From the NCBI RefSeq assembly GCF_013299165.1, contig NZ_JAAFKD010000002.1, positions 265,405-329,404 on the forward strand: a stretch of 64,000 nt of DNA. The letters are read 5' to 3'. Shown piece by piece: positions 30,623-64,000 of this stretch; within the stretch, counting starts at the first letter, position 1; each line of letters begins with the position of its first letter. This DNA is from Microcoleus sp. bin38.metabat.b11b12b14.051 (GTDB lineage Bacteria > Cyanobacteriota > Cyanobacteriia > Cyanobacteriales > Microcoleaceae). Position numbers and translations under genes: made by a program. The notes beneath the pieces are model-generated. The model was not told the origin of the DNA. It ran no database searches and worked only from the letters and a program-made list of their open reading frames with translations.

Positions 30623-30662
30623 GATAATAATTGGTCTTGAATAAAATTTAGTCCTGCGAACA

Positions 30663-31134
30663 GGTTTGTAGTGAGGACTTTAGTCCGCATTCAAGAAGGA
30701 CTGAAGTCCTCACTACAAACCCCAATCAAAAGGTTTGTAGTGAGGACTTTAGTCCGCATTCAAGAAGGACTGAAGTCCTCACTACAAACCCCAATCAAAA
30801 GGTTTGTAGTGAGGACTTTAGTCCGCATTCAAGAAGGACTGAAGTCCTCACTACAAACCCCAATCAAAAGGTTTGTAGTGAGGACTTTAGTCCGCATTCA
30901 AGAAGGACTGAAGTCCTCACTACAAACCCCAATCAAAAGGTTTGTAGTGAGGACTTTAGTCCGCATTCAAGAAGGACTGAAGTCCTCACTACAAACCCCA
31001 ATCAAAAGGTTTGTAGTGAGGACTTTAGTCCGCATTCAAGAAGGACTGAAGTCCTCACTACAAACCCCAATCAAAAGGTTTGTAGTGAGGACTTTAGTCC
31101 GCATTCAAGAAGGACTGAAGTCCTCACTACAAAC
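30663..31134. repeat. 69-bp tandem array of palindromes, seven copies
   Basis: Seven essentially identical copies at a 69-bp period. Each has GTAGTGAGGACTTTAGTCC, a GCATTCAAGAA spacer, the inverted arm GGACTGAAGTCCTCACTAC and a linker AAACCCCAATCAAAAGGTTT. The period is 23 codons, so an accidental seven-repeat open frame runs through the array; it continues into unrelated sequence antisense to the next gene and is not a real protein. The array lies between convergent genes. Confidence 0.95.
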
Positions 31135-31174
31135 CAATTTTATTGTAGGCGCTCCACAAAACAAGATATTATTA

Positions 31175-60411: not shown

Positions 60412-61105
60412 AAAAAATAAAAATTAGTTCCACTTGTCAATCATTAGTATTACTCAAAAGACTGCTTTTTTGTGATAAAGATTTATCGACCGAGGCGTGA
60501 ACGCTCATAAATATTGCACTTTTCACGATATTAATTACATAAAATATCAACAGTTTCAACCCCTCATTCAGTAAGTCCCCCTCCGACTTCCTAAGTTCTG
60601 GGGCGATGTTTCATACATCAGTCGTTGCTCGGAATATATTAAGCGTGTGGGGGCTAGCACGGAGGCAAATCAGCGCAAGTATAAAGCCGAATCAGTGCAA
60701 GTACGGGGCGCATCAGGGCGGGTACGGGGGCGAATCAGCACAACTACAAGAACACCGCCACGATAGTTACCAATTCCTACCTGCTTCACCTACGTGAAAT
60801 CCGCTGTATGTGAAACTTTCGTAAAGATGCCGGACAGCTATTGACACGTTATAACAGTTATTAGTAAGCTCAAAAAAGCAACAAAACAGCCGACAACAAC
60901 AAAAAGAGCGATCGGCACAAACATTTACTTCATCAGAGCGTCGATCATCAGAGCGCAAATGACAGTTTAACGCTGAGTGTAGCGTTTATATTCACGCTGC
61001 ATAAAACTAGATCGTTGACAAATACATTCCAAGAAACAAAAGTCAATACTATCCTTAAATGTCCAAGGAAACGCATTAACATTTGAAAAATCAGGGAGCC
61101 AGCGA
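60412..61105. other. Long gap with a degenerate GAATCAG-type repeat
   Basis: No gene is supported in about 690 bases. At 60650-60750 about four imperfect copies of a 21-24-base unit occur (GAATCAGTGCAAGTACGGGG, GCATCAGGGCGGGTACGGGG, GAATCAGCACAACTAC). The remainder is AT-rich with nothing recognisable, and presumably contains the promoter of the long protease gene. An AGGGAG ribosome-binding site lies at 61093-61098. Confidence 0.6.
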
Positions 61106-64000
61106 ATGTTATCAATCAACTCACTCACCCCCAGCACAACTACCAGCACATCCATAATTCCTGACACAGAAAAGACACAGTTAGGAAACATTACCAGCAC
61201 TAATCATTTCCCCCCCCCCACAAAAAACATACAACCAAGCGAATTAGACACCAGTAACATCAGTCCAGAATTGTTGAACAAAAGCCAATTATCAGTTGAT
61301 AGCAGCACATATTCACAGATAAAAATAACAGAAATAGACGCTTTACTGATTGAAAATCCCGGAACGACAATCGATAATCTACCTAAAAAAGACCCAACAA
61401 CCACCTCCCAAATCGATCCAATTACTGGCAGCAATACAAAATATGAAACTACCAATAACATCAAAATAGACTCCAGCACATTCACAGAAGAAACAAAAAA
61501 TGGGAATGTTTCCGATATTACCAATTCAGTGACAACTCCCGCCGAAGTCAAACCAAATGCCTCCGCAACAGAGACTAAAAACGCGACAGTCTCAGAAATT
61601 CCCGACAGCAACGCAACAACAGCAGATACAACTTCAGAAAAGTGTAAATGTACGGAAGAGACAGACACTAAGAATACGACTGTTTCAGAAATTCCCAATT
61701 CCACGACAAAGCCTGTCGAGGTAAAAGCAGATTCTCCAGCTACAGACACTAAAAACACGACTGTCTCAGAAATTCCCAATTCCACGACAAAGCCTGCTGA
61801 GACAAAACCAGATTCTCCAGCGACAGACACTAAAAACACGACAAAGCCTGTCGAGGTAAAACCAGATTCCTCAGCGACAGACACTAAGAATACGACAGTT
61901 TCAGAAATTCCCACTTCCACGACAAAGCCTATCGAGGTAAAACCAGATTCTCCAGCCACAGACACTAAAAACACGACAAAGCCTGTCGAGGTAAAAGCAG
62001 ATTCTCCTGCGACAGAAACTAAGAATACGACAATCTCAGAAATTCCCAATTCCACGACAAAGCCTGCTGAGACAAAAGCAGATTCTCCAGCCACAGAGAC
62101 TAAAAACACGACAAAGCCTGTCGAGACAAAACCAGATTCTCCAGCCACAGACACTAAGAATACGACAGTTTCAGAAATTCCCAATTCTGCGACAAAGCCT
62201 GCTGAGACAAAAGCAGATTCTCCAGCTACAGACACTAAGAATACGACAGTCTCAGAAATTCCCACTTCTGCGACAAAGCCTGCTGAGACAAAAGCAGATT
62301 CTCCAGCGACAGCCACTAAAAACGCGACAAAGCCTGTCGAGACAAAACCAGATTCTCCAGCCACAGAAACTAAGAATACGACAGTCTCAGAAATTCCTAC
62401 TTCCACGACAAAGCCTGTCGAGGTAAAACCAGATTCTCCAGCGACAGAGACTAAAAACGCGACAGTTTCAGAAATTCCCACTTCCACGACAAAGCCTGTC
62501 GAGGTAAAACCAGATTCTCCAGCTACAGAAACTAAAAACGCGACAAAGCCTGTCGAGACAAAAGCAGATTCTCCAGCCACAGAAACTAAAAACGCCACAG
62601 TTTCCACTGCTGCGACAAATCCTATCGAGGTAAAACCAGATTCTCCAGCTACAGAAACTCAAAACACGAGTGTTTCTACTGCTGCGACGAATCCAGTCGA
62701 GAAAAAACCAGATTCTCCAGCCACAGAAACCAAAAACCCGACTGTTGCGACAAAGCCTATCGAGGTAAAACCAGATTCCTCAGCCACAGAAACCAAAAAC
62801 GCGACAATTTCCCCAAATCTACTCCCAACAATCTCAGAAAACACTCAATCAGCAGTCGCAGTTATTCATTCAATCGACGAAATAACAGGTGAAAAAACAG
62901 AAACAACAGCCATTCCCTCAGCCTCTACCCAAACAGAAACCACCGAATTACCAGGAATACCAGCAGCAGCAACAGACATTATCACCGGAGAAATTCAAAA
63001 CATCTCCTTAAATCTCCCCAATACCTCCGTCAATGCAGACATTACCGAAACTACCAGCCAAACCGATCAAAGTTTCCCACTAATTTATGATGAGGAAATT
63101 TCCCCACAGCTTGACACTCTCAACCGCACATTACCCGCAGCAGAATTCACCGACAACCATCCACCATCCGAGTCAGAATACATAATTGCCAACTTTGACA
63201 CCGACTCGGAAAACCTCACCGATATTCCCGAAACAGCCACCACTCAAAATTATCTACCGTCAGACTCAGCAAATATCATTCCCTACACAGACAATCACTC
63301 ACAAACAACCATTGACGAGTATGCAAACCCTAACTTTGACACCAACTCCGAAAAAACAACCGTTATTCCAGAAATAGCATCACCCGCAAATAATCAGCCA
63401 GAAAATTCTCTTCATATCATCCCCGAAAGCCAAAGCAACTCCCAAACCCAAATTAACGAATACCCAGTTGCTAACACAACTACCGAATTAGAAACAACTC
63501 CCAATTCCCCCCAACCAACCCAACCACTAATCGGCATCATCGACACCGGCTTCACCACCAACAACCCCAACATCGACTACAGCAAAATCATCCTCGGAAA
63601 AGACTTAATCGACAACGACAACAACCCCCTACTCCAAGCAAACGAAGGCAACCAACACGGAAGCGCCATCCTTGAAATTATAGCCGGCGATAAAAACAAA
63701 AACAATCGCGAAACACCAATCTGGTTGGGAAGAGCAACAGGTTCCGGCAACTGGCACGAATCCTTGATAGAATTTGTAGACGCAGCAAAATCATCAAAAC
63801 AACCAAACGCCGTAGTTAACCTCAGCTTCGACTTAACCCAAATAAGTCCAGATGGCAGAGAAACCACACGCTACCAATTGACAGAACCAGAAAAATCAGC
63901 ACTCAAGTACGCCCAAGACAACAACATCCTGATTGTAGCAGCCTCCGGCAATCAAGGGGCAAAATCCTCAGCCCTAGGACAAGCCTCAACAGAATTCAAC
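61106..64000 (+). CDS. S8 (subtilisin-family) protease with long Thr/Pro/Lys repeat region, 3' incomplete
   Basis: The frame is open for 965 codons from an ATG seven bases after AGGGAG and leaves the window. Residues 1-145 are Thr/Ser/Asn-rich with no signal peptide. Residues ~148-570 are about 18 tandem repeats of 27 or 18 residues with the core DSPATETKNATVSEIPTSTT and KPVEVKP. A second low-complexity stretch follows to ~805. The protease domain then starts with Asp813 in IGIIDTGFTTNNPNI and His851 in GNQHGSAILEIIAG, followed by AVVNLSFD and VAASGNQGA. The catalytic Ser lies beyond the edge. Lack of an N-terminal signal suggests type I (C-terminal signal) secretion, an inference. No stop codon occurs in the frame. 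Confidence 0.93.
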   Translation, partial: MLSINSLTPSTTTSTSIIPDTEKTQLGNITSTNHFPPPTKNIQPSELDTSNISPELLNKSQLSVDSSTYSQIKITEIDALLIENPGTTIDNLPKKDPTTTSQIDPITGSNTKYETTNNIKIDSSTFTEETKNGNVSDITNSVTTPAEVKPNASATETKNATVSEIPDSNATTADTTSEKCKCTEETDTKNTTVSEIPNSTTKPVEVKADSPATDTKNTTVSEIPNSTTKPAETKPDSPATDTKNTTKPVEVKPDSSATDTKNTTVSEIPTSTTKPIEVKPDSPATDTKNTTKPVEVKADSPATETKNTTISEIPNSTTKPAETKADSPATETKNTTKPVETKPDSPATDTKNTTVSEIPNSATKPAETKADSPATDTKNTTVSEIPTSATKPAETKADSPATATKNATKPVETKPDSPATETKNTTVSEIPTSTTKPVEVKPDSPATETKNATVSEIPTSTTKPVEVKPDSPATETKNATKPVETKADSPATETKNATVSTAATNPIEVKPDSPATETQNTSVSTAATNPVEKKPDSPATETKNPTVATKPIEVKPDSSATETKNATISPNLLPTISENTQSAVAVIHSIDEITGEKTETTAIPSASTQTETTELPGIPAAATDIITGEIQNISLNLPNTSVNADITETTSQTDQSFPLIYDEEISPQLDTLNRTLPAAEFTDNHPPSESEYIIANFDTDSENLTDIPETATTQNYLPSDSANIIPYTDNHSQTTIDEYANPNFDTNSEKTTVIPEIASPANNQPENSLHIIPESQSNSQTQINEYPVANTTTELETTPNSPQPTQPLIGIIDTGFTTNNPNIDYSKIILGKDLIDNDNNPLLQANEGNQHGSAILEIIAGDKNKNNRETPIWLGRATGSGNWHESLIEFVDAAKSSKQPNAVVNLSFDLTQISPDGRETTRYQLTEPEKSALKYAQDNNILIVAASGNQGAKSSALGQASTEFN

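Follow-up and report, generated by a model that had tools for sequence, protein, structure and literature searches.

A 2,087-codon S8 protease gene of Microcoleus has an exchangeable C-terminal domain and probably encodes a polymorphic toxin

We analysed a 64,000-nucleotide stretch of DNA from Microcoleus sp. bin38.metabat.b11b12b14.051 (the window; contig C2, NZ_JAAFKD010000002.1, positions 265405–329404), part of a 7.07-Mb assembly that is 99.85% complete. Its right end holds the first part of a very large gene, which encodes a repeat stalk followed by an S8 protease domain. An earlier reading of the window's sequence alone (the sequence-only reading) had described an open frame of 965 codons starting at ATG 61106, preceded by an AGGGAG ribosome-binding site, and both are present as claimed. 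It had also named a frameshift or stop just past the window edge, with no Ser motif, as a finding that would overturn its interpretation. We looked for one in the contig sequence and found instead 1,122 further codons in frame, ending in a single stop at C2:332773. These include the catalytic-serine motif that had been anticipated as GTSxA (GTSIAAA, residues 1009–1015, past the window end). Coordinates are collected in Table 1; functions throughout are predictions from sequence, family and fold.

Table 1. Features of the toxin-like gene and its surroundings. Positions without a prefix are those of the window; C2:326510 corresponds to L003:6511.
Feature	Position	Strand	Residues or codons	Remark
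RBS-like AGGGAG	61093..61098	+		7 bases 5' of ATG
Toxin-like gene, part in window	61106..64000	+	first 965 codons	whole gene 2,087 codons, C2:326510-332773 = L003:6511-12774
Short N terminus	61106..61225	+	residues 1-40	common to other full-length relatives; 10 N-termini compared by eye
Repeat stalk	61703..62830	+	residues about 200-575	16 repeat cores
S8 protease domain	63518..64000 in window; to about L003:9750	+	residues about 805-1080 (about 805-965 in window)	
Linker	about L003:9778-11610	+	residues about 1090-1700	48% Ser/Thr/Asn
Exchangeable C-terminal domain	about L003:11731-12771	+	residues about 1741-2087	
WG-repeat partner gene	L003:12795-14162		455 codons	starts 20 bases after toxin-gene stop
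S8-core remnant	L003:14438-14611			stop-broken; 3' of WG-repeat gene

A simple hydropathy scan finds neither a signal peptide nor a membrane segment at the N terminus (best 15-residue mean 0.37; range across the 10 N-termini compared, 0.13–0.65), and the absence of a signal peptide noted earlier is thus supported. A run of ten C at 61210–61219 (codons 35–38) is the longest C or G run in the window. Among eight relative rows a counterpart (C9) is seen in L047, and the other seven lack any such run of 6 or more; two pairs of rows probably represent the same locus. Homopolymer tracts of this kind can slip, turning genes on or off.

In the stalk, the core K[PA]DS[PS]AT occurs 16 times, in frame, between residues 207 and 555. 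Spacings are 27 (seven times), 18 (five), 24 (two) and 21 residues (one), and the repeats are also picked up by Tandem Repeats Finder. The earlier description of the 18-residue repeat as the 27-residue repeat minus a TVSEIPxST block is accurate, but the array takes up about 40% of the 965-codon frame rather than nearly half. VSEIP-type blocks occur at least once in 19 of 29 related proteins and at least twice in 17, in variable numbers and spacings (several of the 29 are partial). This recurrence argues against the repeats being purely an assembly artefact, without confirming the exact copy number. Opposite the stalk lies an antisense open frame of 467 codons (61204–62607, minus strand), probably a by-product of the repeat codon pattern.

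The S8 domain, scanned alone, matches PF00082 with an E value of 6.9e-27, and its best subtilisin match in the PDB has an E value of 4.2e-12. The catalytic triad is complete, with Asp813, His851 and Ser1011 (the last beyond the window) plus Asn949, in the roles usual for the S8 family. Pfam scans of the whole proteins P0001 and P0002 gave no match, even for S8, yet the 301-residue S8 piece alone scored as above. Whole-protein Pfam nulls are therefore weak, including the one for Rhs repeats, to which a resemblance may still exist. The same genome has a paralog (contig C15, L004:7500–10934) in which an S8 domain of about 51% identity is joined to an M23 peptidase, with no close downstream partner. 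Records from other cyanobacteria include related S8 proteins that carry CHAP, M23 or amidase domains.

The linker that follows was found in 13 of 29 Microcoleus genomes (one per species, several of them drafts) and in none of 32 genomes representing ten further genera of its family (E 1e-15). A structural model gives it 22 long strands, mostly at pLDDT 70–94. Because the S8 part of this model, certain by sequence, is mostly below 50, we take the linker model as unreliable. Fold comparison with the model returned mainly outer-membrane barrels and ApoB, at root-mean-square deviations of 8.5–31 Å, and no meaningful relative. The linker shows weak aromatic/aliphatic periodicity (z 3.4 at 25 residues).

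Relatives were collected by a protein search with residues 790–2087, in which scoring was limited to the 7,976 candidates with the most words in common. At least 45 proteins matched, the best named being from Microcoleus or Oscillatoria/Oscillatoriales. One (P0013) aligns over the whole query and 28 of the 45 over 64–84% of it; their C-termini vary, and some partial records lack one. Across the 65 rows collected (62 distinct, several truncated), the core was matched in all and the window-type C-terminal domain, or tail, in five. Other tails match CdiA_C (E 9.9e-18) or PG_binding_1 with CHAP/DUF7689 in Pfam, while deaminase-like (HAE and CxxxC), REase-like (restriction endonuclease) and NlpC/CHAP-like tails were assigned by eye, with no Pfam support. 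The carrier is thus conserved, and unrelated C-terminal domains are exchanged behind it at a sharp junction, as in polymorphic toxins.

Comparison of individual relatives illustrates the exchange. L044 is 84–88% identical over residues 800–1720 and its tail has no match. L048 is the reverse case: it has no match below residue 1560, is 100% identical at 1572–1640 and has a tail 83–96% identical. Over the linker end, the tail and the WG gene its DNA is 88–89% identical, the match falling into two adjoining stretches (1,900 and 1,606 bases). In P0016 the core is 47–77% and the tail 84–85% identical. These diverging identities indicate that a tail and its partner gene can move independently of the core. 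Three cassettes (L043_10347, L048 and L053) begin in the linker and have no S8 domain. Four more (L054, L055, L057 and L058) are cut by a contig end, where an orphan cassette and a truncated full gene look alike. Elsewhere, L043:2318–18127 holds three consecutive units (barrel tail with WG gene, NCWEM tail with a 415-aa gene, and PG_binding+CHAP tail with an LRR gene) and looks like an arsenal island.

The sequence-only reading had proposed a large cell-surface or secreted S8 protease. A very large, intact S8 protein with a stalk is indeed encoded, but the exchangeable C-terminal domain points to a polymorphic toxin, and we dropped a plain surface protease as the leading interpretation on seeing the exchange.

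The window's tail is predicted to fold as a TIM barrel of the GHL10 type, with Cwp19 of Clostridium difficile as a close match. In the fold comparison Cwp19 is nearest, about 4 Z units above PgaB, at 18% identity to the tail. The link comes from this comparison, since sequence searches of solved structures gave no usable match (best E 0.55, with a profile; none for P0055). An Asp-Asp pair is present at the end of strand 4, as judged without a direct residue alignment to Cwp19. RTX repeats, which the sequence-only reading had proposed looking for past the window, are absent from the C terminus, where the barrel stands. A C terminus of the RTX, type I secretion kind was accordingly rejected for this protein. 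One relative, L049, has a weak RTX-like stretch (E 6.6e-4, below cut-off).

The gene immediately downstream encodes a protein whose N terminus is hydrophobic and which contains 11 WG repeats (PF14903, E 3e-116). We then asked how tails and downstream genes pair across relatives. Twenty-three open frames with the junction pattern, in 21 loci, yielded 19 tail/next-gene units after four were dropped: L045, where the contig stops before any downstream frame; L052, whose frame breaks past the junction; and L056_11446 and L016, which both run off their contigs. L046 and L060 never entered the count, as the junction was not reached in one frame, and two kept units are imperfect (the L043_10347 tail looks truncated; the L057 partner is split into two frames). 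The tails form eight clusters. A partner family was shared in 21 of 22 same-tail pairs and in no different-tail pair. None of 20,000 label shuffles equalled this pairing, though relatedness within clusters makes the shuffles exaggerate independence. Adjacent, tail-type-specific partners are a further feature of polymorphic toxins found here. For the window-type tail, a WG gene is next in all three units, and close homologs of tail (at least 420 bits) and WG protein (at least 688 bits) occur in the same 3 of the 29 genomes.

Partner N-termini also sort by tail. For the three wall-type tails (the window's, NCWEM and PG_binding+CHAP), partners have hydrophobic N-termini in 11 of 11 units (2.41–2.97), compared with 0.31–1.51 in 8 of 8 units for the remaining tails. 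Hydrophobic N-termini opposite wall-type tails are what the toxin interpretation predicts. A small gene, HAD-like from an FDLDDTL motif spotted by eye, lies near toxin units at L058:2740–3198, where it is directly behind the tail, L061:7389–7877 and L047:13610–14140. It is perhaps a leftover antidote gene.

We interpret the gene, with a probability of about 0.74, as a polymorphic toxin whose tail would cut the glycan strands of peptidoglycan, with the WG-repeat protein as its putative immunity protein and the in-built S8 domain as the protease that frees the tail. What is read from the DNA itself is the intact frame, the S8 triad, the stalk, the conserved linker, the sharp junction, the tail-specific downstream genes and the orphan cassettes. 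Toxicity of the tail, its action in the periplasm, neutralisation by the WG protein, self-cleavage by S8 and the manner of export are putative. The most likely mechanism, of which the sequence shows only the anatomy, would begin with the giant protein leaving the producer cell, the stalk keeping it at or beyond the producer surface. The S8 domain would then process the protein, the released barrel would cleave the glycan strands of a neighbour, and the periplasmic WG-repeat protein would spare sister cells.

Several observations weigh against this interpretation. Self-cleavage by the S8 domain is hypothetical. The window's tail has no Pfam match, and of 10 relatives or copies scanned, two passed the GHL10 (PF02638) cut-off, three fell below it and five had no match. 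Immunity proteins are typically small, and the WG partner has 455 residues. The two members of tail cluster T7 (L058 and L061) have a common helical stretch, by eye, yet different ends and partners. The compartment pattern of partner N-termini had been spotted before any count was made, and the NCWEM tail is wall-type by eye only. In the accessible text on Cwp19, Arg132, five residues after Trp127, is proposed as catalytic partner; five residues after Trp1838 of the tail stands a Gly, so that a counterpart of Arg132 is absent, as judged by eye without a direct Cwp19 alignment. Finally, searches for export markers did not reveal a route for this protein.

These searches were as follows. In the window's genome there is no match to PF06841, the tube family of extracellular contractile injection systems (eCIS), or to the type VI secretion sheath family PF05943. 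PF06841 has matches in 4 of the 29 genus genomes and is absent from 10 of the 13 linker-bearing ones. Both routes were rejected on these markers. A two-partner secretion domain has no Pfam match on the protein, in a scan that also missed S8, and none of the nine places in the genome with such domains is the window locus. As to the type I secretion suggested by the sequence-only reading, an HlyD-type adaptor is present in the genome, but strong HlyD matches do not track the toxin (7 of 13 toxin-bearing versus 8 of 16 other genus genomes). HlyD is thus uninformative as a co-occurrence marker, and the data speak neither for nor against type I secretion.

A more elaborate version of the toxin interpretation can be drawn. 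These would be genus-restricted polymorphic toxins independent of the contractile routes tested, in which S8 and a beta-sheet linker (about 22 long antiparallel strands, as modelled) form a casing opened by the protease, with interchangeable warheads including a GHL10 lytic transglycosylase, periplasmic WG-repeat immunity and a C10 slippage switch. We consider this combination unlikely as a whole.

An unlikely alternative, which extends the sequence-only reading, is an S8 protease, secreted or at the surface, with variable C-termini that anchor it to the producer's own wall or remodel that wall, the downstream genes being accessory rather than antidotes. In its favour, the S8 domain and the stalk do exist, a number of tails appear directed at the wall (PG_binding, CHAP, GHL10-type), and the S8–M23 paralog does without a close partner. 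However, a CdiA_C toxin-type tail occupies the same slot, tails swap while cores stay 84–88% identical, tails travel with their own partners, and orphan cassettes without S8 exist. It is improbable that the gene is a polymorphic toxin with a tail directed, like PgaB-type barrels, at a non-peptidoglycan polysaccharide (sheath, exopolysaccharide or a poly-N-acetylglucosamine-like polymer): Cwp19 scores well above PgaB and near relatives of the tail match GHL10. DigH is presumably also a GHL10 protein. It cleaves denuded peptidoglycan glycans, according to the accessible part of PMC12288456. That the protein is cargo of a contractile injection system of the Photorhabdus virulence cassette (PVC) or eCIS type is very improbable and, by the PF06841 marker, largely refuted for the window's genome, even though subtilisin and cyanobacteria appear in PVC-pathway entries in the available Table 1 of PMC3482391.

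Apart from these genes, the window contains 68–69-base tandem arrays with internal inverted sequence (1–712, 30662–31135 and many shorter ones) and many 7-base arrays. Both kinds are typical of filamentous cyanobacterial intergenic DNA.

Polymorphic toxins, some with a subtilisin processing protease, have been described before (Zhang et al. 2012, PMC3482391, accessible sections). The gene resembles the systems covered there in its conserved carrier, exchangeable C-terminus, adjacent tail-specific partner, orphan cassettes and in-built protease; it differs in lacking a signal peptide and in a carrier made of a repeat stalk, S8 and a genus-specific linker. Carbohydrate-acting toxin domains in those sections are a FlgJ-type glycohydrolase and an aldo-keto-reductase barrel, neither of which is GHL10. 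Cwp19 is a surface enzyme of its own cell, with a signal peptide and wall-binding repeats, whereas the window's barrel forms the exchangeable C-terminal part of a very large protein. C-terminal exchange and a downstream partner are shared with CdiA-CT/CdiI, as is the CdiA_C domain of one family member, but our scans showed no two-partner secretion domain on this protein. Like other S8 proteases, including mycosins (the best NCBIfam match, E 1.7e-18, far below its cut-off), the protein has a complete domain with its triad; unlike them, it embeds this domain in 2,087 residues of multi-part protein.

Among the open-access papers listed by our searches we found no case of a WG-repeat immunity protein, none of GHL10 as a polymorphic toxin domain and no description of the stalk–S8–linker carrier. 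The accessible text of PMC8855297 merely mentions a WG-repeat lipoprotein among regulated genes. Those papers yielded little on protein weapons of mat-forming filamentous cyanobacteria. These organisms live in dense communities, and the gene probably belongs to a warhead-swapping system directed against neighbouring bacteria. If so, it would add a large protease-bearing carrier to cyanobacterial weapons, and a wall-directed toxin domain type (GHL10) with a WG-repeat candidate antidote. Database names, now mostly 'S8 family serine peptidase' or 'hypothetical protein' where such genes are named, would be corrected, and the toxin/antidote pairs would allow kin recognition in mats to be tested.
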